Below are positions 1,053 to 51,914 of a DNA stretch of 64,000 nucleotides, in pieces. A program made the position numbers and the translations under genes. Under the pieces are notes generated by a model. It had not been told where the DNA came from and made no database searches. It was given only the letters and a program-made list of their open reading frames with translations. Position 1 is the stretch's first letter, and every line of letters starts with the position of its first letter. This DNA is from Rhizophagus irregularis (taxonomy: Eukaryota; Glomeromycota; Glomeromycetes; Glomerales; Glomeraceae), in NCBI RefSeq assembly GCF_026210795.1, contig NC_089457.1, positions 186,001 through 250,000 on the forward strand, in the 5' to 3' direction.

Positions 1053-1102
1053 AATTTCAAGCTGATCTCAATCCCAATCTCAATCCCAATCTCAATCACG
1101 GG
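1053..1102. repeat. 12-bp minisatellite
   Basis: Short tandem iteration of a unit close to AATCTCAATCCC, about three to four copies, directly beside the repeat that starts near 1113. Confidence 0.6.
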
Positions 1103-1112
1103 TTTTGTGAAG

Positions 1113-1356
1113 ACCCCCAATATATTTAAAATTGAATTTAATAAAATATATTAATTAATAAATATATTTTATAAATTATATATGTTATAATAAAAATTTA
1201 ATTAGGTTAGAAGATTGATTTGCTTATTTTTATATAATTTTTAAGGTTAGATATCAACAATGCTTAGCGATTATAGTAAAAACCTATGCTTAGAGCTACT
1301 AATAAAAAATATTTTTGGAACCTTACCTATATAAGTATTTTCTGGGGTCCTGCATA
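1113..1356 (-). repeat. Short copy of the 27.2-kb TIR element
   Basis: This stretch is the reverse complement, with few changes, of 27202-27440, including the terminal motif around TATATAGGTAAGGT and the CTAAGCATAGGT segment. It is bounded by GACCCCC at the left and GGGGTCC at the right, so it may be a short deletion derivative with its own terminal inverted repeats. No coding capacity. Confidence 0.6.
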
Positions 1357-1510
1357 ATGCGTAATGTTTGATTAAATAATTTAATAAATTGACTATAAAT
1401 CATATATGTCAAAATTTGGCCAATTTTTAATAATTTCTGAAATTTGGCTGAAATGTATAACAGATCAGCTGATTTGTTACATGGTCAAAAGTTTTTATTT
1501 CGACCAGTGA
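1357..1510 (-). repeat. Dispersed repeat shared with 48178-48347
   Basis: The sequence is a diverged reverse complement of 48178-48347 (shared segments include CACTGGTCGAAA and TTTGGCCAAATTT). It directly abuts the preceding repeat. Probably a short non-autonomous transposon or SINE-like unit; no clear terminal inverted repeats were found. Confidence 0.5.
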
Positions 1511-1564
1511 TTGTATTATCATTAATTTCTTGATAGTCATCCAGTTCTTCTGAATAAGTATCTA

Positions 1565-3768
1565 CAGTCAAACTTCGATATACCGATATTCTATATACCG
1601 ATAATTGCTTTTAACGATAAATTTTTATTGTCCCATTTCACAATTAATAAAAAAACCTCAATATATCATATTATATATAAATTCGCGTTGTAACATATAA
1701 CGATACAAGTTCTTTGTCCCTTTATAGTAACGAATAGTAACATTGTATCGATATTTAGGTTACACATTCACGTGCACTTATCTTTTTTTGCTCTTTAGAT
1801 GCATGCAACATTTCGGTATCTATGAAATATCATTCTTGAAATAATGCATTTAATGAAAGTATCAAAAATTCATTACAACCAAAGAAAAGAGATGTTTTAA
1901 CGCACGCGCAAAAGCGTCAACTCTGTTAGATTCTCAGAAGACACCACGGCTTACTTAACAAGAACTTGCAGCCATATACCAAATCAAGCAAAACACTGTG
2001 CTCTGATATTTTAAAAAACAAAGATAAGTGGCTGCTTGTAAATCCCAATTCAGAAGAAGCAAATAAATAAAGAGAAAGGCCACTTTGCTTTCCTCAAGTG
2101 GAAGAAGCTCTTGCGCTGTGGTTAACAAATGCTCTTGCTGCAGGAGTTATAATTAACGGTGATATTTTACGTGAAAAGGCAAAAATTTTTGTGCGAGGGT
2201 TTGAAATTGATAATTTTACCGCTTCTAATGGATGGTTAGAGAAATTTAAACAACGCCATCATTTAAAAGAATATGTTAAGTGGGGTGAAGCAAACAGTGC
2301 ACCATTAGAAACTTTAGAAGAAAAAAGGAGAAAATTACGTGAAATTATCAAGGATTATAACTTAAATGATGTTTTTAACTGTGATGAAACAGGTAATCAA
2401 GATCTTCTTCAAAAATCCAAATAATATTCTAACATTTTATGTTACTATTTTCAGGATTGTACTGGGACCTGGAATATTCAAAGACACTAGCACAAGGGCC
2501 ACTTTCTGGAAAATAGAAATCAAAAAAACGGGTTACTCTTCTCCTTACATGTAACGCAACTGGAACTGAAAAATTGAAGCCGACCTTTATTCACACATAC
2601 CAAAATCCACGAATATTACGCAGAAAAAAAAGGAAGAATTGCCAGTTAATTACTACTGGAATTCAACAGCTTGGATGCAAGTTTCGATATGGAATGATTA
2701 TCTTACAAAATTGGATGCACGAATGCGATTACAACATCGCAAAATTCTTTTAATTGTTGATAATGCTCCAGTACATGTCATAAATGAAAATCTAAATTTA
2801 ACAAATGTGGCTGTGCATTTTTTGCCACTAAACACTACAGCTTACTTGCAGCCCTGTGATGCGGGAATTATTAATTCTTTTAAGGTTAGTGATGGTTTTT
2901 TTTTATTCTTTTAATGATTAACATAAATTTTATTTTAAACTTTAATAATTTAGGCGCGTACCGGAAATTACTTATCAGAAATAGGATTGAAGCATATGAA
3001 ATTTCACAGGAATTAAACAAAGGAGCCACCCCTTTAAATATTCATGATGCCATTAATTTTAGTAGTGATGCTTGGAATTCCGTAAGTCAACGGACAATTT
3101 CTAATTGTTGGCGCCATACAGGAATTTTACTGCAGGATGATATAGATGAATCAGATGACGAAACTGATGATGATGATGATCAAGCAATTCGGGATGAAAT
3201 GGAATTGCAAGATCTAATTGATCAACTCCCATTCAATGACCCTATGAATGTGGAAGAATTTCTTCATATAGATGACTTTTTGAAGGGTAATGAAGGGTTA
3301 ACGGATGACGAAATTATATCAATGGTAAAATCAAATAACGAACCAGAAATTGATCTGAATGAAGGACCTATGGAAATAATTTCAAAAGGAGAAGCTTTGA
3401 GTCATTTGGATAACCTTGTTGTATTTTTTGAGTATTCATCCGATGTTTCTGTTAATCCAAGTGAATTAAGTATATTACAAAAACTAAGACATCAAGTGTT
3501 GAAATCATATATTAATAGTTCAAAACAAATTACATTAGATAATTTTATCCAAACTTTGTAATGTGATATTAAATAAATACTAACTGTATTACATGAATAA
3601 AAATTATAAAATTTATAAATTTGTATATATGTGAAAAAATTTTTATACCGATATTGATCAACGTACAATATATATATCGGTATATAAGATTTTTATGATA
3701 TAACGATAATTCGATCTACCGATGATTTTTTCCCAAACCAACAGTATCGGTATATCGAAGTTTGACTG
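1565..3768 (+). mobile_element. pogo/Tigger-type DNA transposon, complete ends
   Basis: A 2204-bp element with terminal inverted repeats starting CAGTCAAACTTCGATATACC at both ends (24 identical bp) and a TA duplication on both sides (1563-1564 and 3769-3770), as expected for Tc1/mariner-pogo elements. Subterminal TATACCGATA motifs repeat in both flanks. It contains one decayed transposase gene on the plus strand. Confidence 0.93.
1860..3561 (+). pseudogene. Tigger/CENP-B-like transposase, decayed
   Basis: Fragments in order show a CENP-B/Tc5 helix-turn-helix region (KRQLC near 1915, then QELAAIYQIKQ near 1965 in another frame), a second HTH domain (NGWLEKFKQRH near 2230) and a DDE_1 catalytic core (FNCDETG near 2380, LLIVDNAPVH near 2755, LPLNTTAYLQPCDAGI near 2830). 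Two introns are still recognisable: 2393-2454, which joins DET-G to LYWD in frame, and 2885-2953, after which one base appears lost. Stops and frameshifts upstream of 2098, and a TAG at about 2511 in GK*KSKK, show it is dead. The C-terminal acidic tail runs to the TAA at 3561. Confidence 0.88.
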
Positions 3769-17807: not shown

Positions 17808-19004
17808 TAAAGCTCCGAACGGTTCCGGTTTGAACCGGGAACCGATCCGGAACCGGCAAAAAATTCGGTTCGGTTCTCGGTTCGGTTTTGGACTTGGAAC
17901 CGTCCGGTTCGGTTCGGTTCTATCCGAAATTAAGAAAAAATGCGAAAAAACGAATATACGACTATCCAGTGATCGTACAAGGACGAGCCATAGCTCGTTG
18001 GAATCCTCTCATCGAGACGCGTCGAATGGTGGTAAAATCAAGTCTCTAGCATCGATAGATCACGAGATAGCATATGATGAGTGTTTCTTAAAAAATTTGC
18101 ATTAGAAAATGATCCATTGATGCTAGAGACATGAATTTACCACCATTCGACGCATCTCGACGAGACGAATCTAATGAGCTATAATTCGTCTTTTTACAAT
18201 CACTGGATGGTCGTGTATTCGTTTTTTCGCATTTTTTTTAAATTTTCGAACGTCAAAAATTAAAATTCCGATACAAGCGATTAAACGCCATCTATTGATT
18301 ACACAAAGACGAATTTTAGCTCATTGGATTCGTCTCACTGAGACGAGTCGAATGGTGGTAAAATGATGTCACTAGCATCGGTAGATCGTTTTCTAATGCG
18401 AATTGTTTAAGAAACACTTACCATGGGCTATCTCACGATCTATCGATGCTAGAGACTTGATTTTACCACCATTCGACTCGTCTCAGTGAGACGAATCCAA
18501 TGAGCTAAAATTCGTCTTTGTGTGATCAATAGATGGCGTTTAATCGCTTGTATCGGAATTTTAATTTTTGACGTTTGAAAATTTAAAAAAAATGCGAAAA
18601 AACGAATACACGACCATCCAGTGATTGTAAAAAGACGAATTATAGCTCATTAGATTCGTCTCGTTGAGATGCGTCGAATGGTGGTAAATTCATGTCTCTA
18701 GCATCAATGGATCGTTTTCTAATACAATTTTTTTAAGAAACACTCACCATGTTCTATCGCGTGATCTATCGATGCTAGAGACTTGATTTTACCACCATTC
18801 GACGCGTCTCGATGAGAGGATTCCAACGAGCTATGGCTCGTCCTTGTACGATCACTGGATGGTCGTGTGTTCATTTTTTTCGCATTTTTCTTAATTTCGG
18901 ATAGAACTGAACCGAACCGGACGGTTCCGGTTCGGTTCCATTTCGGTTTTCGGTTCTACCCGAACCGCAAAAAAACCGAACCAAACCGACCCGTTCAGAG
19001 CTTT
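17808..19004. mobile_element. Giant palindromic (foldback) element, MULE-like 9-bp duplication
   Basis: A 1197-bp insertion flanked by perfect 9-bp duplications AATGAAAAT (17799-17807 and 19005-19013). Nearly the whole element is an inverted repeat about a centre near 18400. Terminal arms start AAAGCTC and are rich in GGTTCGGTT / AACCGAACC iterations. Inside are three smaller palindromic blocks (about 17940-18235, 18240-18590 and 18595-18890), each with GACGAATC-type arms around CTAGCATCGATAGATC. No transposase is encoded, so it is non-autonomous. The duplication length points to Mutator-like elements. Confidence 0.88.
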
Positions 19005-19999
19005 AATGAAAATAATACAAATAAAGTTAATGATGATGATGAATCTGATAATGATAGTCCATTAAGAGATATATATGTTGGACAAACATTTATGACATTT
19101 GAGATCCTTGAAACATGTTTAAAATGATATGCAAATAATTTGGGATTTGAAATAAAAACAGTAAAATGTGAAAAAGAAAATGGTATCTGGACCAAGAAAA
19201 ATGTAAATCTTACACATACATCGGGAAATTTTTTAAGATGCAGAACTGCGGAGATCTGTAAAATTAGCAGATCTCTGCATTTTTTTTGTGAATTTATGCG
19301 GAAGTCTGTGATTTTGCAGATTTCTGCTTTTTATTTTTTACAAAGTTATGCAATAATCTGCAATTTTGCAAGTTTCCGATTTTTTATGTATGAATTTCTG
19401 CGGTAATCTGCGATTTTGCAGATTTCTGCTTTTTTTTATGTGAAATTTATGCGGAAGTCTGCAATTTTGCAGATTTTTGCTTTTTTTTCATTAAAATATC
19501 AGTTCGATCTGCAATTTCATCATTGATTTAATATTTAAACTTTAATTAACTCTAACTTGATTTAATACCTAAATGATTTTTTCTACATTACTCTTTAAAA
19601 AAAAAAACTTTACAAGACTTTAAAAAAATAATTTTTTCTACAACACTTATTACTAAAGAAAAAAACTTTGTGAAATAATTTTTCTACAACACCTTTTAGG
19701 AAATAATCTGTTAAAGATTCCAAAGAAAAAATATTTCTATTATTTTTTAAGCTTCGAAACTTATTAGAGAAATTTTTTTTTTAAAAAAAAAAATTTATTT
19801 GCAAAGTTCAGAGTCTTTAAGGCAAATTTGTCCAACATTCGGCACATAATCTGTAACATGCAGGGAAATTATAACTAAAAAAGGAGTCGTATTCCTTTTT
19901 TTTCTTTGAAAAAAAAAAAATTTTTTTTAATGAACGTCAGTTAACGTTCAGTTTGTAAGTCAAGAACATAATGGAGTCTATTGTCAATTTAATTTGGAG

Positions 20000-21620
20000 G
20001 TATATCACCTCTGAAACTTTAATTATTTTTAGAGAAAAAAAAATTTTTTATATTATATAGGTTCGGATGGAACCTATCGATGATTTTAGTTGGAATTCGG
20101 AGGTATGCTTACCTCCGAAATTTAATTTATTTTTTTTAAAAAAAAAATTTTTTTTTATATTATATAGGTTCCAGATAGAACCTATCAAAGATATTGGAAT
20201 TCGGAGGTATGCTTACCTCCAAATCTTAATTTATTTTTTTTAAAAAAAATAATTTTTTTTATATTATATAGGTTCCAGATGGAACCTATCAAAGATATTG
20301 GAATTCGGAGGTATGCTTACCTCCAAATCTTAATTAATTTTTTTTTAAAAAAAACAATTTTTTTTATATTATATAGGTTCCGGATGGAACCTATCAAAGA
20401 TATTGGAATTCGGAGGTATGCTTACCTCTGAATCTTAATTTATTTAAAAAAAAAATAATAATTTTTTATTTATATTATATAGGTTCCGGATGGAACCTAT
20501 CGATAATTTTGAAATTCGAAGGTATATTAACTTCCGAATCTTTAATTTATTTTTTAAAAAAAAAATAATTTTTATTATATTATATAGGTTCCGGATGGAA
20601 CCTATTGATGATTTTTGAATTGGAGGTATGCTTACCTCCGAATCTTAATTTATTTTTTTTAAAAAAAATAATTTTTTTTATATTATATAAGTTCCGGATG
20701 GAACCTATCAAAGATATTGGAATTCGGAGGTATGCTTACCTCTGAATCTTAATTTATTTAAAAAAAAAATAATTTTTTAATTTTTTATTTATTATTATAG
20801 GTTCCGTAGATGGAACCTATCGATGATTTTGAAATTCCTGGAGGTATATTAACTTCCGAATCTTTAATTTATTTTTTAAAAAAAAATAATTTTTATTATA
20901 TTATATAGGTTCCGGATGGAACCTATTGATGATTTTGAATTCGGAGGTATGCTTACCTCCGAATCTTAATTTATTTTCAAAAAAAAAAATAATTTTTTTA
21001 TTATATTATATAGGTTCCGGATGGAACCTATTGATGATTTTTGGAATTCGGAGGTATGCTTACCTCCGAATCTTAATTTATTTTCAAAAAAAAAATAATT
21101 TTTTTATTATATTATATAGGTTCCGGATGGAACCTATTGATGATTTTTTGGAATTCGGAGGTATGCTTACCTCCGAATCTTAATTTATTTTTTTTAAAAA
21201 AAAATAATTTTTTTTATATTATATAGGTTCCGGATGGAACCTATCAAAGATATTGGAATTCGGAGGTATGCTTACCTCTGAATCTTAATTTATTTAAAAA
21301 AAATAATAATTTTTTATTTATATTATATAGGTTCCAGATGGAACCTATCAAAGATATTGAAATTCGGAGGTATATTAATTTCTGAATCTTTAATTTATTT
21401 TTTAAAAAAAAAATAATTTTTATTATATTATATAGGTTCCGGATGAAACCTATTGATGATTTTTGGAATTCGAGGTATGCTTTACCTCCGAATCTTAATT
21501 TATTTTCAAAAAAAAAAAATTTTTTTATTATATTATATAGGTTCGGATGGAACCTATTGATGATTTTTTAATTCAGAGGTATGCTTACCTCCGAATCTTA
21601 ATTTATTTTAAAAAAATAAT
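20000..21620. repeat. Tandem repeat block A1 (about 105-bp units)
   Basis: Roughly 15 units, each with TATATTATATAG, GGTTCCGGATGGAACC (itself palindromic), a short spacer, TTCGGAGGTATGCTTACCTC (palindrome around the donor) and a T-run/A-run stem. Units differ by scattered substitutions and small indels; several pairs are nearly identical (for example those at 20910, 21015 and 21120), which points to recent unit duplication. Confidence 0.93.
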
Positions 21621-21639
21621 TTTTTATTTAACGAACGCC

Positions 21640-23960
21640 ACTAACGTTCGTTTTTCATATTTTTAAGTCCTGGAAGCCAAAGTACGGCTCCGGACATTTT
21701 TTTTTTAATTAAGTTATCTAACGAACGTTGCTAACGTTCGATTATAGGTCTTGGATGCCAAAGAACGGTTCCAGACATTTATTTTGAAGGTAAAACCTTT
21801 ACCTTCAAAAATTTTTTTCATATTTTTGTTTAACGAACGTCGCTAACATTCGTTTTTTATTTTTTTTTAGGTCCTGGACGCCAAAGTACGGCTTCGGACA
21901 TTTATTTCGAAGGTAAAATTTACCTCCGAATTTTTTTTTATTTTATTTATACTTACGAATGTTAATTTACGTTCGTTTTTACATTTTATAGATTCTGGAT
22001 GCCAAAGTACAGCTCCGGACGTTAATTTCGAAGGTAAAACCTTTACCTTCGATTTTTTTTTTATTATTATTTAACGAACGTTAATTAATATTCGTTTTTA
22101 TATTTTATAGGTCCTGGACGCCAAAACCAGCTCCGGACTTTACTTTGAAGGTAAAACCTTCGAAAAAAAAAAATTTTTTTTTTTGTTAACTTTATTGACG
22201 AATGTTAACTAACGTTTCGTCTTATTTTTTTAGATAAAGGAAGCCAAAACTGAGTTCCGGGCTTCCTATATCGAAGGTAAAATAAACCTTCGAATTTTTT
22301 TTCTTTTTATTTAAACGAACGTTCACTAACGTTCGTTATTCTTTTTTTTTAGGTAAAGGAAGCTGAAAGAACTTCCATATCGAAGGTAAAATCTTTGATT
22401 TTTTTTTATTATTTTATTTAATGAACGTTACTAATTCTAACGTTCATTTTTTTACTTTTCGTAGATACAACCGTACAAGAAACCGAAAGGCAGGTTCCGG
22501 TCTCTTATTTCGAAGGTAAGGCTTCGAAATTTCATTTTACTTTTTTTCTTTTATTTTAGCGAAACGTTTACTAACGTTTCGTTTTTCTTTTTTGTAGGAC
22601 TACGGCATTCCGGACACTTTGTGGGCTCCATTTCGAAGGTATATTATCCTTTATATCCTTCGAAAGTGTTTATTTTTATTAGTTTTTTTTACGAACGTTA
22701 ACTAACGTTCGTTTTCATTTTTGTAGGTCCAAGACGCCAAAAGTACGTGTTTCGGATTCAATTTCAACGGTAAATAACTTCGAAAAAAAAGGAGTCTCTT
22801 TTTTTTTTAACGAACGTTCACTAACGTTCATTTTTCTCTTTCTTTGTAGGTCCAGGACGCCGAAGGACTTTAATTTCGAAGGTAAACTTCGATTTTATTT
22901 TTATTTTTTATTTAATTTTTTTTTGTTTATTTTAACGAAGCGTTATTAACGTTTCAATTTTCTTTTTTTAGATTTCCGGCTCTCCTGAATTCTCCTGGAC
23001 GGAATTTTGAAGGTATTTCTTCGAAATTCTTTTATTTTTTTTATTTTATTGTTGTTAAAGAACATTTCTAACATTTTTTATTCTTTTTTTTTAGATTTTC
23101 GACTCTCTGGTTTCAGCCTGGACGGAATTTTCAACATGGTTAGTTTCGTAACAAACTTTTCGTTACGAAACTATATTTTTTTTTATTTTATTTAAACGAA
23201 ACGTTACTAATGTTTCGATTTCTTTTTCTTTTGTAGGTTTTCCGGTAGCCACCTGGATTGGACGGGATTTCGAAGGTAAAACTTCGAAATTATTGTATTT
23301 TCATTTTTTATTTGAACAAAACGTAGACTAACGTTTCGATATTATTCTTTCGTAGGTTGACGGCTTCCTGTAACCCTCCTGAAAAGAATTTCGAAGGTAA
23401 ACTTTGAAATTCTTTTACTTTTTTTGTTTTTTTTATTTGAACGAAACGTTTACTAACGTTTCAATTTTCCCTTTTTACGGCTTTCCAGATGCCTCCTGGA
23501 TGAAATTTCGAAGGTAAAACTTTGAAAAAATAATTTTTTTTTGTTTTATTTTAACGAACGTTCATTGACATTTGTTTTTATTTTTGTAGATCCAGAATGC
23601 TGCCGGACTTCCATATCGAAGGTAAAACCTTCGAAAATTATTTTTTATTAATTAATTTATTGACGAACGTTAACTAACGTTCGTACATCTTTTTTTTTAG
23701 GTAAAGGAAGCCGAAAGACAAGTTCCGGACTCCCATATCGAAGGTAAAACCTTCCAAAATTATTTTTATTAATTTATTTGACGAACGTTAGTAACGTTCG
23801 TATTTCTTTATTTTAGGTCCCAGGGTTCATTTAAAGAACTTGAGGTAAATACTTTGAAGTTTTTACTTCTTTCTTTAACGATCGTTATACTAATGATCGT
23901 TTTTCTTCTATGTTTAGGTCCCAGACTGCTGGGTTAGATATTTCGAATCTTTCTTGAAAT
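21640..23960. repeat. Tandem repeat block A2 (about 120-bp units)
   Basis: About 20 degenerate units, each with an inverted repeat around ACTAAC (AACGAACGTTxACTAACGTT type), a T-rich tract ending in TAG, an exon-like segment often beginning GTCCTGGACGCCAAAG or GTAAAGGAAGCC, then TTTCGAAG|GTAAA with a complementary stretch. The spacing between TAG and GTAA is usually 35-50 nt. Block A2 runs on directly from A1 but has a different exon sequence. Confidence 0.9.
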
Positions 23961-24369
23961 TTTCGTTTGTAGGTATCTGTTGTTTGTTGAAATCGAACCA
24001 ACTGGAACGAATATTCCAAACCATTAACAACATGTAAATGTGCAGTAAAGAGATGATGAATAGCAATGACTAGTAATAGATTTCAATTGTATTTGTAAAC
24101 TTGTTAATATATAATAAAAAAGTAATTTTAATTATATAAATAAATTAGTAATTAATGCAATAAATTAATTTGTATTATTGTGACGCAGATTTTTACTGAA
24201 AAAAATTGCTGAGGTATTTTGAAGGTTTTTATTTAAAAATCTGCGCAGAACTTTGTTATTTATAAAATCTGCGCAGATATAATTTCTGAAAATCTGCGCA
24301 GATCTGCTCCCCAAAAAATTTCCCGATGTAATCAAAACCAAGTATCAGCTTGTATTGATTGTAGATATA

Positions 24370-24668: not shown

Positions 24669-25283
24669 CTAGAGTTCCAAATAGATCAAGTCAGGTCAGG
24701 TTAATTGATAAACCTGACCTGAAATTTTTTTTCAGGTCAGGTCAAATCAGGTTATATCAGATTATCTATTTGATTTAACCTGAACTGAAACCTGAAAATT
24801 TCAGGATTTTTATTAATATATCAAAAAAAAAATGGTGCAAACCATTTTTTTTGAAAATATTGCGATTTACTTTTTTATATTAAAATTATATAAAAAGGTG
24901 AATCACAATATCGCAACTAACTTTTTTTATATAAAATCAATATAAAAAAGTGAATTCCAATACTGCAATTCACTTTTTATATATAAAATTAATATAAAAA
25001 AGTAAAATCCAATATCACAACTCACTTTTATTATATAAAATCAATATAAAAAAATGAATCCTAATATCACAACTCACTTTTATTATATAAAATCAATATT
25101 AAAAGTAAATTATAATGCCATCACTTATATTATATAAAATTATAGTTTCAGGTCAACAGGTCATTCAGATTATATTGATGTTACAACCTAAACTGATGCT
25201 GAATTGCAATTGTTAAACCTGATCTGATAAATTCAGGTCAACCTATTAGGTTATCTGAATTTGGTCAACCTTTTTGAAACTCT
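24669..25283. mobile_element. hAT-like non-autonomous element
   Basis: A 615-bp insertion flanked by an exact 8-bp duplication ACTTATAT (24661-24668 and 25284-25291). Terminal repeats read about AGAGTTYCAAAWAG. The subterminal regions carry repeated CAGGTCAGGTTA motifs, typical of hAT transposase-binding arrays. The middle has about five copies of a 60-bp unit around TATATAAAATCAATATAAAA. Its removal keeps the FAR1 frame open. Confidence 0.8.
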
Positions 25284-48511: not shown

Positions 48512-50714
48512 GTTCAGCTTTCGGGTGGACTTCCAAAGTACAGAAACTCCAAAGATTCGTAAGTACGAATTCTTTGGAGTTTATTTTATTTTTTTTAATA
48601 TGAACGGTTACTAACCGTTCTTTTTTTACTTTTTTTTTTAGGTTCAGCCGTTTGGGTGGGCTTCCGAAGTATGGAAAAACCAAGTTTCGTAAGTACGAAA
48701 CTTGGTTTATTTATTTTTTATTTTTTTAATTTAATTTAATATGAACGGTTACTAACCGTTCTTTTTTTACTTTTTTTAGGTTCGGCCGTTCGGGTGGGCT
48801 TCGAAGTATAATAGAAACCCCAAAGATTCATAAGTACGAATTCTTTGGAGTTTTTTTTATATTTTTAATATGAACGGTTAATACTAACCGTTCTTTTTTA
48901 TTTTTTTTAGGTTCGGCCGTTCGGGTGGGCTTCTGAAGTATGGAAAAACCAAGTTTCGTAAGTACGAAACTTGGTTTATTTTTTTTTATTTTTTTAATTT
49001 AATTTAATATGAACGGTTACTAACCATTCTTTTTTTACTTTTTTTTTAGGTTCGGCTGTTCGGGTGGGCTTCCGAAGTATAGAAAAACCAAGTTTCGTAA
49101 GTACGAAACTTGGTTTATTTATTATTTATTTTTTTAATTTAATTTAATATGAACGGTTACTAACCGTTCTTTTTTTACTTTTTTTTTAGGTTCGGCCATT
49201 CGGGTGGGCTTCTGAAGTATGGAAAAACCAAGTTTCGTAAGTACGAAACTTGGTTTATTTATTTTTTATTTTTTTAATTTAATTTAATATGAACGGTTAC
49301 TAACAGTTCTTTTTTTACTTTTTTTTTAGGTTCGGCCGTTCGGGTGGGCTTCCGAAGAACGGAAAACTAAGAAACCAAGATTCGTAAGTAAGTACGAATC
49401 TTGGTTTAATTTTTTTGTTTTTTTTTTAATATATGAACGGTTTACTAATAACCGTTCTTTTCTTTTTTTTAGGATCGGGTGGGCTTCCGAAGAACGAAAA
49501 CCCAAAGATTCGTAAGAATCTTTAATTTATTTATTTATTTATTATTATTACGAATGGTTTACTAACCATTCTTTCTTTTTTTTATAGGATCGGGTGGGCT
49601 TCCGAAGAATGAAAACCCAAAGATTCGTAAGAATCTTTAATTTATTTATTTATTTATTATTATTACAAATGGTTTACTAACCATTCTTTCTTTTTTTTTA
49701 TAGGATCGGGTGGGCTTCTGAAAAACGAAAACCCAAAGATAAAGATTTGTAAGTACGAATCTTTACTTTATAATTTTTTTTTTTGTTTTTTCTTTATTAC
49801 AAACGGTTACTAATAACCATTTTTTTCTTTATTTTTTAGGTGCAGTGGGCTTCCGACGAACGAAAACCCAAAGATAAAGATTCGTAAGTACGAATCTTTA
49901 CTTTATAATTTTTTCTTTTTTTTTTAATTTTATTAATGAACGGTTACTAATACCGTTCTTTTCTTTATTTTTTTAGGTGCGGTGGGCTTCCGATGAACGA
50001 AAACCCAAAGATAAAGATTCGTAAGTAATATACTTACGAATCTTTTTTTTAATGTTATGGAACGATTACTAACCGTTCTTTTGATTTTTTTTTTATAGGT
50101 TCGGGTGGATTCCGTCTTTCCAAGGAACGGAAAAAACTAAAGATTCGGTATGAATCTTTATTTTTTTATTTTTGTTTATTATTACGAATGATTTCTAACC
50201 GTTCTTTTTCTTTTTTTTTAGGTCGGTGTCTTCTGAAGAATGGAAAAAACCAAGATTCATAGTACGAATCTTGGTTTTATTTTTATTTTTTTTTTATAAT
50301 ATTAACGAACGGTTACTGATAAACCGTTCTTATTTTATTTTTTTAGATTCAGTGGGCTTTCGAAGAACAACGGAAAACCAAGATTTGTAAGTAAGTACGA
50401 ATCTTGGTTCTTTTTTATTTTTTATTTTTATTTTTTATTACTACGAACGGTTTACTAATAACCGTTCTTTTCTTTTTGTAGGTTTCGAGATCTTTAGAAA
50501 AGTGGAAACAAGATTCGTACTTACGAATCTTGGTTTATTTTTTATTTTTTTTTAATATTATTATGAACAGTTACTAACCGTTCTTTTCTTTTTTTTTATA
50601 GTTTCAGTGGGTTTCAAAAGATCAAGATTCGTAAGTATATACGAATACGTGAATTATGTGATTGTGGAATTGTAGATTAGTAATACTTATTTGTAATATG
50701 CATTTATAAATAAA
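48512..50714 (+). other. Micro-exon array C (putative multi-exon gene)
   Basis: About 17 units. The first exons are sharply defined: 48512-48558 and 48642-48688, both 47 nt, separated by an 83-bp intron; the next intron is 48689-48779. Exons share GTTCGGCCGTTCGGGTGGGC and end in CCAAGTTTC or CAAAGATTC. The donor GTAAGTA is the loop of a perfect hairpin between the exon end and the first intron bases (CCAAGTTTC / GAAACTTGG). GAACGGTTACTAACCGTTC follows, with ACTAAC at its centre, then a T-tract and TAG. The array ends with AATAAA at 50709-50714. A 47-nt exon rotates the frame; the consensus exon is open in all three frames but some copies have stops. No start exon could be fixed. Unit 3 has AT instead of GT at its donor. 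Confidence 0.55.
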
Positions 50715-51914
50715 GTTGTGATTTATTGCGAATATTAAATAAAATGAGTTGTGGCTGAATATTAGTAAATAAATTTAGTACAAATTTGCAACATAAATTA
50801 AGTAACATTCGGAAAACTATTCACGAAAATTTGCTATCTGAAATTGTTTCGAATGTTAACTGAATTTTGGCCGAAATTTCAAGCTGAACTTTAGGCGAGT
50901 GGCAGCGAACTGCAGCCAAAAAATCAGCTAAAGTTCGACCAGCATTAGACCATAAATTAGCCTAAAATCGGCTGGTTGAATTTTGGCCGATTTGGACTAT
51001 TTTGATTAGTGTTGTTCTTTAACTCACTTTATAAGTTTCATCCTTTAGCCTTATTATGAGTTTTTTTTCACGTTGAGTATTTTTTTTCTTTTTTTTCTTT
51101 TTTATTCTTTAGGTTCTTGTTTTCATTATTCTTTACTAACTATATTTTCTTTACTTTATGCCATCTCTTTTACTTCGCAGGCTTTACTTTTCAATGTCAT
51201 GGGTTTTGTTCTTTGATTTTATGAGTTTCATTATCATTTAATTCTTCAACTTTCTTTGTGGGTCTTGTTCTTCATCTTGATTTTGTTTTTAACTCTGTTG
51301 TTGTCATTTTTTTTGTGTATCAAAATTGCTAGTTCTGTTAAAAATAAAATATAAATTTTACAATATTTTTCTATTAGTAAACTTTAATTAAACGATTTTT
51401 AGCCATACAGTATATCATTATTTTATTGCATAAAATCAAAAACTTTTTGCGAATTAAAGTGTTGCGAATTTTTTAACGAAAATAAAAAAGTTGACCAATC
51501 AAAATATAGTATAAAATCACGTGATTAGGGTCGCCATGACGACAGGGTCACCATAAACTAACGCCCATAACTTATAATATTATTACAGTCAAAAAAAGTT
51601 CTTGCTATAAGTCAAATAAAAGGAGAATTTTAACAGTAAAAATAACTGGAAAATATTATAAGTGCAAATAAAAAACTCAAAGATACAAATATTGCAATTT
51701 CAGTTGTTCAAGAACAGCAAAATGATGACCAATTTAATGTATCTGATAATGATGATAATTTTTTAAATCAATTTTCTGAAGATTCAGAATAAAATATTGA
51801 ATCACCTCGTGAATAGAGAAATTTAATTAATAAATGGATTGAAATGGTAGAAGATGAGAAATCAGAAATTCTAAATCAGAAGGATAAAGAAAATAATAAA
51901 ATAGTACCATTTAT

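Follow-up and report, generated by a model that had tools for sequence, protein, structure and literature searches.

Within a 64,000-nt stretch of Rhizophagus irregularis DNA (contig NC_089457.1, positions 186,001 to 250,000 of the forward strand; hereafter "the window"), a 5,110-bp element bounded by terminal inverted repeats (TIRs) was analyzed. It is probably a non-autonomous transposon related to Plavaka elements, the interior of which would be an amplified, spliced, and mostly noncoding exon-intron array. The splice grammar of this array is strand-specific and lies far above that of shuffled sequences, with or without a term for hairpins. The class of the carrier is well supported. Protein coding, which the initial annotation had proposed in the form of a micro-exon gene, is not supported. 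Relatives of the element were located at at least 39 other loci (query, its first 785 bp; the best 40 scored of 100 candidates), and 20 of these loci were fetched in full for comparison with the window copy. The features of the window copy are as follows.

19219..24328, + strand: whole TIR element, 5,110 bp, with duplicated flanks of 2 bp (TA)
19219..19234, + strand: left TIR, CATCGGGAAATTTTTT, 16 bp
19235..19517, + strand: subterminal repeats with periods of ca. 50 and 102 bp
19800..19890, + strand: possible true first (untranslated) exon, judged from the sequence, ending in the hairpin donor GGAGTC/GTATTCC (the slash marks the exon-intron boundary)
19971..19999, + strand: 29-nt exon with an ATG, from the parser
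20061..21578, + strand: array A1, 15 near-identical exons of 38-43 nt; introns of 65-71 nt within the array
21748..23972, + strand: array A1b, 19 more diverged exons of 25-55 nt; introns of 73-92 nt
23973..24118, + strand: exon-like segment at the end of the array; AATAAA at 24113
24313..24328, - strand: right TIR, 16 bp

Layout and splice grammar of the array

The splice parser takes account of donors, acceptors, and hairpins at donors, but not of the reading frame. It returned 35 exons from 19971 to 23972, with a spliced length of 1,420 nt; for the later counts, one exon start was corrected manually (21714 to 21748). Introns measured 61-92 nt except at the A1/A1b junction, and the first exons were 29, 42, 39, 39, 39, 39, 38, 38, 43, 38, 40, and 41 nt long. 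The 35-unit array that had been annotated from 19971 onward was therefore recovered by a frame-blind procedure, and the signals described for it were present as well. In the first half, the acceptors are of the TATATAG type (in A1 mostly TATATTATATAG), and the donors, GTATGC or GTATAT, lie in exon-intron hairpins. In the second half, the donors are mostly of the GAAG/GTAAA type, again in hairpins, and are accompanied by CTAAC-type hairpins. The AATAAA at 24113 makes the proposed 3' end plausible. The sequence immediately 5' of 19971 resembles the 3' part of an intron, so another exon may precede the 29-nt one. In about half of the relatives, the match ends just within the intron that follows the candidate exon at 19800..19890 (ca. 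position 19913; query position ca. 698).

With the hairpin term included, the forward parser score was 139.6 for A1 and 142.4 for A1b, compared to means of 14.6 (standard deviation (sd) 5.9) and 28.7 (sd 10.2), respectively, for 20 dinucleotide shuffles; the reverse complements scored 51.4 and 15.5. Donor hairpins add to the parser score, so the choice of donors and the scores were also computed with the hairpin term removed, and the result held. The forward scores were then 87.4 (A1), 87.9 (A1b), 57.0 (A2), and 73.9 (A3), where A2 and A3 are separate arrays in the window whose coordinates are given below. The respective maxima of 50 shuffles were 20.2, 30.1, 25.2, and 35.6 (means of 7.0, sd 3.3, for A1 and 13.2, sd 4.9, for A1b), and the reverse complements scored 13.0, 3.9, 4.0, and 5.2. 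Thus, the reverse complement of A1, which exceeded its shuffles when hairpins were rewarded, fell under the shuffle maximum when they were not. The score margin is in part a matter of copy number, because shuffling also breaks the repeats. For three control regions, the forward and reverse-complement scores were under the shuffle maxima with and without the hairpin term. Simply reversed controls came out slightly over the maxima in two of three cases with the term (69.4 vs. 64.1; 58.4 vs. 57.6) and in one case without it (38.4 vs. 36.3).

The splice signals of the initial annotation, with hairpins at many donors and at the branch-type sites of the second half, were thus borne out and proved strand-specific, and the hairpins extend to the other arrays. 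In A2, an intronic hairpin often follows the donor; in A3, a long stem bears GTAAGT close to its tip. Hairpins of at least 8 pairs were found at 9/15 donors in A1, 10/18 in A1b, 6/12 in A2, and 15/16 in A3 (40/61 in total), and at 38/60 when the donors were picked blind to hairpins. Among control donor-like sites elsewhere in the window, the figure was ca. 22/387 (5.7%). A CTAAC-type motif was present 18-50 nt before the acceptor in 13/18 introns of A1b, 6/12 of A2, 16/16 of A3, and 0/15 of A1; the A1 introns featured CTTAAT 47-53 nt before the acceptor in 10/15 cases. Fourteen hand-picked introns were folded as RNA, yielding z-scores of -1.51 to -6.51, with 13 of the 14 at -2.4 or below.

The arms of the stems were also exchanged. 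The mean donor stem scores with their own arms were 8.07 (A1), 8.11 (A1b), 7.67 (A2), and 11.69 (A3). After the downstream arms had been swapped within each array, they were 8.16, 6.63, 6.65, and 8.17, and with arms taken from other arrays they were 4.24, 5.14, 4.72, and 5.67; the stems are not alike between arrays. For the branch stems, own and swapped arms scored 7.85 vs. 6.88 (A1b), 6.83 vs. 5.94 (A2), and 6.62 vs. 6.68 (A3).

Related copies and rival explanations

In three diverged copies (L027, L029, and L034), the GT of donors and the AG of acceptors were kept at 28/31, 29/31, and 28/31 sites, compared to 61/92, 62/92, and 61/93 for other GT and AG dinucleotides (p = 0.007, 0.002, and 0.005). 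Across the family, donor stems comprised 922 cells, with 127 one-sided changes (31 of them to G-U) and 20 double changes, 17 of which were paired (7.6 doubles expected). Raw divergence was higher in exons than in introns; this was dropped as evidence, as it largely follows CpG-type sites and slow T/A-rich intron stretches.

Several points weigh against the reading of the array as spliced and noncoding. The retention figures set aside 5 of the 36 splice sites per diverged copy, which fell in gaps, and they amount to about one comparison, since the three copies are close kin. Four near copies kept their splice sites (34/34, 32/36, 32/34, and 32/33) no better than their control dinucleotides (96/103, 111/118, 97/104, and 93/99, i.e. 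93-94%), and L022 kept them slightly worse. One-sided changes in donor stems far outnumber double ones, and the decay of CpG sites in the two arms can look like compensation. In the branch stems (806 cells), 96 changes were one-sided and 6 were double, only one of these being paired (3.6 doubles expected). Swaps within an array left the A1 donor stems and the A3 branch stems unchanged, and stable stems over donors usually hinder splicing. AACGTT palindromes with loops of 2-5 nt are widespread, occurring in 3,401 places (reversed control, 354). Finally, 109 of 228 distinct exons have lengths that are multiples of three, and the gene models that cross the arrays can be ab initio, one of them (P0010, below) staying open by skipping exons.

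The decay of stems within the family and the abundance of AACGTT palindromes would both suit a palindromic satellite that exists at the DNA level, grown by slippage and hairpin-directed repair, in which the splice-like motifs go unused. An insertion in L035 that contains a palindrome array without obvious splice motifs (by eye; see below) speaks for it as well. This explanation is nevertheless unlikely: the order of motifs is strand-specific even with hairpins ignored, the branch-type motif of A3 is positioned 26-31 nt before the acceptor in 16/16 introns, splice sites are retained in the diverged clade, and gene models run through the arrays.

Quite unlikely is a mobile family of protein-coding micro-exons, from which alternative splicing would pick frame-open exon sets to give variable proteins. 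The ATG exon had been annotated as feeding in phase into the exons that follow; this is so for the first six exons, the 29-nt one included, and it fails for the later ones. The ATG segment itself, ATGGAGTCT, was found in the window copy only and in 0/20 of the other fetched copies. Its counterpart was recognizable in 16/20 copies, 13 of which read ATAGAG, and was not shown in L035, L036, L039, and L040. A set of 263 strictly defined exons was reduced to 228 distinct ones and to 60 after clustering at 80%. The lengths modulo 3 (0/1/2) were distributed 17/21/22 in the 60 representatives and 109/71/48 in the 228 distinct exons; the excess of multiples of three in the latter arises because the A1 unit, mostly 39 nt long, is repeated. 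The exons are poor in stop triplets, as coding sequence would be, but they are equally so on both strands: the 60 exons contained 87 in the sense and 81 in the antisense direction, compared to 150 (sd 9) in mononucleotide shuffles, and the 228 contained 343 and 363, compared to 598. With the last two A1b exons omitted (they were cut by the alignment), exon length changes relative to the window copy were not multiples of three in 9/9 cases among the four near copies (one change being common to all four), 7/8 in L027, 6/8 in L029, and 7/8 in L034. Errors in the T-runs of a Nanopore-based assembly could partly explain this frame noise. Coding was set aside because the ATG is private to the window copy, because lengths and length changes are not in threes (the 39-nt A1 unit apart), and because stops are equally scarce on both strands. 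The features by which a micro-exon gene would be recognized, i.e. exon lengths mostly in threes and a conserved start codon, were not found, and the frame is not kept between copies.

Gene models with open frames are a further point in favor of coding. Spliced translations matched proteins at E-values of 0.01 or better (7 for A1 and 37 for A3), all of them named as R. irregularis; 22 of the 44 matched sequences were read (7 and 15, respectively). Models under several annotation prefixes cross such arrays. In P0010 (OCT59_019420), residues 1-126 of 130 are covered by exact A3 pieces of the window. Some A3 exons are skipped in this model, one donor apparently lies 4 nt downstream, and members of one exon family appear in more than one frame, which counts against coding. 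In P0006 (OCT59_010035), residues 34-82, its last 49, are 100% identical to the L028 counterpart of the terminal segment. The OCT59-named annotation appears to be that of PMC10234402, which was made with short and long RNA reads.

It is very improbable that the array chiefly yields a hairpin-rich RNA from which small RNAs are cut, or a structured RNA of another kind, with splicing secondary. The local hairpins are strong, as such a precursor would have them; stems of ca. 7-14 bp are short for Dicer, and the window yielded no Rfam match at gathering thresholds. On the side of this explanation, PMC10234402 reports that regions of young genes in R. irregularis give rise to abundant small RNAs of ca. 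24 nt.

The least credible explanation is that of an introner-like element planting introns in unrelated genes: similar introns do reside here on a DNA transposon, and introner families with TIRs and target-site duplications are reported (PMC9860276), yet the amplified unit is an exon plus an intron in tandem, and 56/57 copies of the exact A1 donor hairpin string lie within loci of the element family, so that for this one string no dispersal to other genes is seen. The earlier notion of an intron-amplifying element fits tandem growth inside the element.

The carrier element and its probable Plavaka partners

The annotated 5.1-kb mobile element stood up to scrutiny: it has 16-bp TIRs, is 5,110 bp long, and is present in multiple copies. 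Across the genome, the TIR CATCGGGAAATTTTTT was matched exactly 101 times, compared to 0 for its reversed-pattern control. The right end lay inside the fetched stretch in 14/20 copies. Target sites were assessed in 18 elements (the window element, the 14 two-ended copies, and L041-L043). Matching 2-bp flanks were found in 16/18 and matching 3-bp flanks in 0/18. The TA flanks that had been noted are correct for the window copy; only 2 of the 16 matching duplications read TA, and the remaining ones were varied, so the insertion site is not TA-specific.

The array region was matched in 20/20 fetched copies, and its length varies. A fuzzy count over 21 copies gave 2-17 A1-type units per copy (open right ends were counted to 6.5 kb), and the types of array in the second half differ between copies, e.g. 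in L035 and L036. By eye, L041 (1.8 kb, with the same TIR) appears to bear a short array on the opposite strand. In L035, an insertion at ca. 1,080-2,920 (minus strand) contains tandem ACATGTAAAA-type palindromes with no obvious splice signals (by eye).

Two TIR-bounded elements outside the 39-locus set, L042 and L043, have the same TIR and are 98.5% identical to one another over 6.5 kb. Compared with the window element, L042 gives matches of 93 bp at the left (86%; these are the element's first 93 bp) and 62 bp at the right (84%); for L043, the matches are 80 bp (89%) and 62 bp (82%). A stretch of L043 contains the Plavaka domain PF18759 above the cut-off (E = 1.2e-14), and a stretch of L042 contains a C2H2-like finger below it. 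The Plavaka-encoding region is present in 8 near full-length copies at ≥95%, L042 and L043 included, with a further group at ca. 72-73%. The TIR and the adjoining end sequence are therefore common to the array element and a Plavaka-encoding element, as is to be expected of a non-autonomous Plavaka transposon. The target duplication has a constant length among the array and partner elements, 2 bp in 16/18. The array elements are probably non-autonomous derivatives of Plavaka elements with the same ends, and the transposase of these partners would mobilize them, as the shared ends suggest.

L042 (4292-6103) and L043 (on the opposite strand) also carry a second, apparently multi-exon gene that starts with MSTKNTKKKTGK. 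The sole Pfam match in the two stretches scanned was a repeat family of unknown function, barely above the cut-off.

By eye, no transposase was recognized among open stretches of at least 90 aa in the window copy and the 14 two-ended copies, and a Pfam scan of 8 such stretches from two-ended array copies returned none above the cut-off. L038, in which the right TIR was not found, contains a DDE_Tnp_4 stretch (PF13359, E = 1e-14) ca. 7.3 kb from the left end, at ca. 7.8-8.2 kb; this is probably another transposon. A CACTA partner (Transposase_21) was also considered, and none was seen by eye inside TIR pairs among the matches listed, of 155.

Outside the element, the window has a tandem repeat with a period of 326 at 17927-18868 (ca. 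2.9 copies) and, a short way beyond the element, a 52-bp tandem repeat at 24871-25104 (4.5 copies). Phage records gave no match.

Further arrays, proposed mechanism, and known systems

The window contains the following features in addition to the TIR element.

42156-44560: A2 region, with TATAAAA at 42156 in its leader
42999..44428, + strand: separate array A2; parser output, 12 exons, with the one at 43107-43141, at the least, doubtful
48518..50661, + strand: separate array A3; 16 exons, followed by a terminal exon

The long first intron of A2 (ca. 42273-42998) contains AATCGGAACGTT...AACGTTCCGATT and AACGAAACGTT palindromes in succession, with no exons between them. The A2 leader and first exon were matched at 22 further loci that reach the query end. 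An imperfect inverted repeat that starts with GGTGACCC lies on both sides of A3 (47705-51554), and hence another TIR element may house this array; the similarity around A3 extends past this repeat, and the portion upstream of A3 (47700-48175) is a repeat of its own. Among the best 40 scored candidates, at least 30 further loci matched the A3 leader and first unit, many of them followed by repeated unit matches, and 9 others matched the upstream part alone. Exact matches to the hairpin ACGGTTACTAACCGTT number 189 (reversed control, 0). AACGTT palindromes with a loop that ends in CT gave 600 + 573 strand matches (control, 9 + 9), compared to ca. 425 if both bases were random.

According to the reading favored here, transcription would run left to right across the array, and splicing would yield a mostly noncoding, polyadenylated RNA of ca. 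1.4 kb. Such an RNA is suggested by the splice grammar, the retention of splice sites in one diverged clade, and the gene models. Units would grow and shrink in number by recombination within the AT-rich introns, given that copies have 2-17 A1-type units and differ in their array types. Spliceability itself would be kept; the donor is often placed in a local hairpin, as is the branch-type site in several arrays. One possible reason is that a well-spliced transposon transcript may better escape RNA surveillance or RNA interference.

More tentatively, such splicing arrays could constitute a new kind of transposon cargo: several repeat families of this genome with dozens of tandem micro-exons, set apart by small introns with a hairpin-presented donor and often a hairpin-presented branch site, the RNA of which would be spliced many times, encode nothing conserved, and be selected for splicing itself. 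A literature search, conducted on titles and the beginnings of abstracts and with most subscription journals and bioRxiv preprints outside its coverage, returned no description of such arrays. If the arrays are spliced as predicted, they would be natural test objects for the recognition of very short exons and of structured introns, and for the question of whether transposons gain from good splicing. If they are noncoding, the 44 matched public R. irregularis protein models would inflate the counts of young, lineage-specific genes.

Several known systems resemble these arrays in part. Schistosome micro-exon genes have many tiny exons in a row with possible exon skipping, and both traits recur here; the R. 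irregularis array differs in being transposon-borne and in having neither a kept frame nor a conserved start codon. Elements that encode a Plavaka domain share the TIR and similar end sequences, whereas the interior of the array element is an exon-intron array, and eight scanned open stretches from two-ended copies gave no transposase match. Introners, as described in PMC9860276, likewise tie mobile DNA to families of similar spliceosomal introns; they put introns into many genes, whereas here exon and intron multiply together in one element. The internally symmetrical stwintrons of Hypoxylaceae (PMC8469720) are also related fungal spliceosomal introns with internal symmetry, but they are nested introns rather than rows of micro-exons in a transposon. 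The SP7-like effectors of arbuscular mycorrhizal fungi (PMC11333574) are repeat-built genes of the same fungus; they are described as having a signal peptide, 6-11 protein repeats, the first of which is preceded by a conserved intron, and the signature Y[KR]Rx[AP]x[AP].

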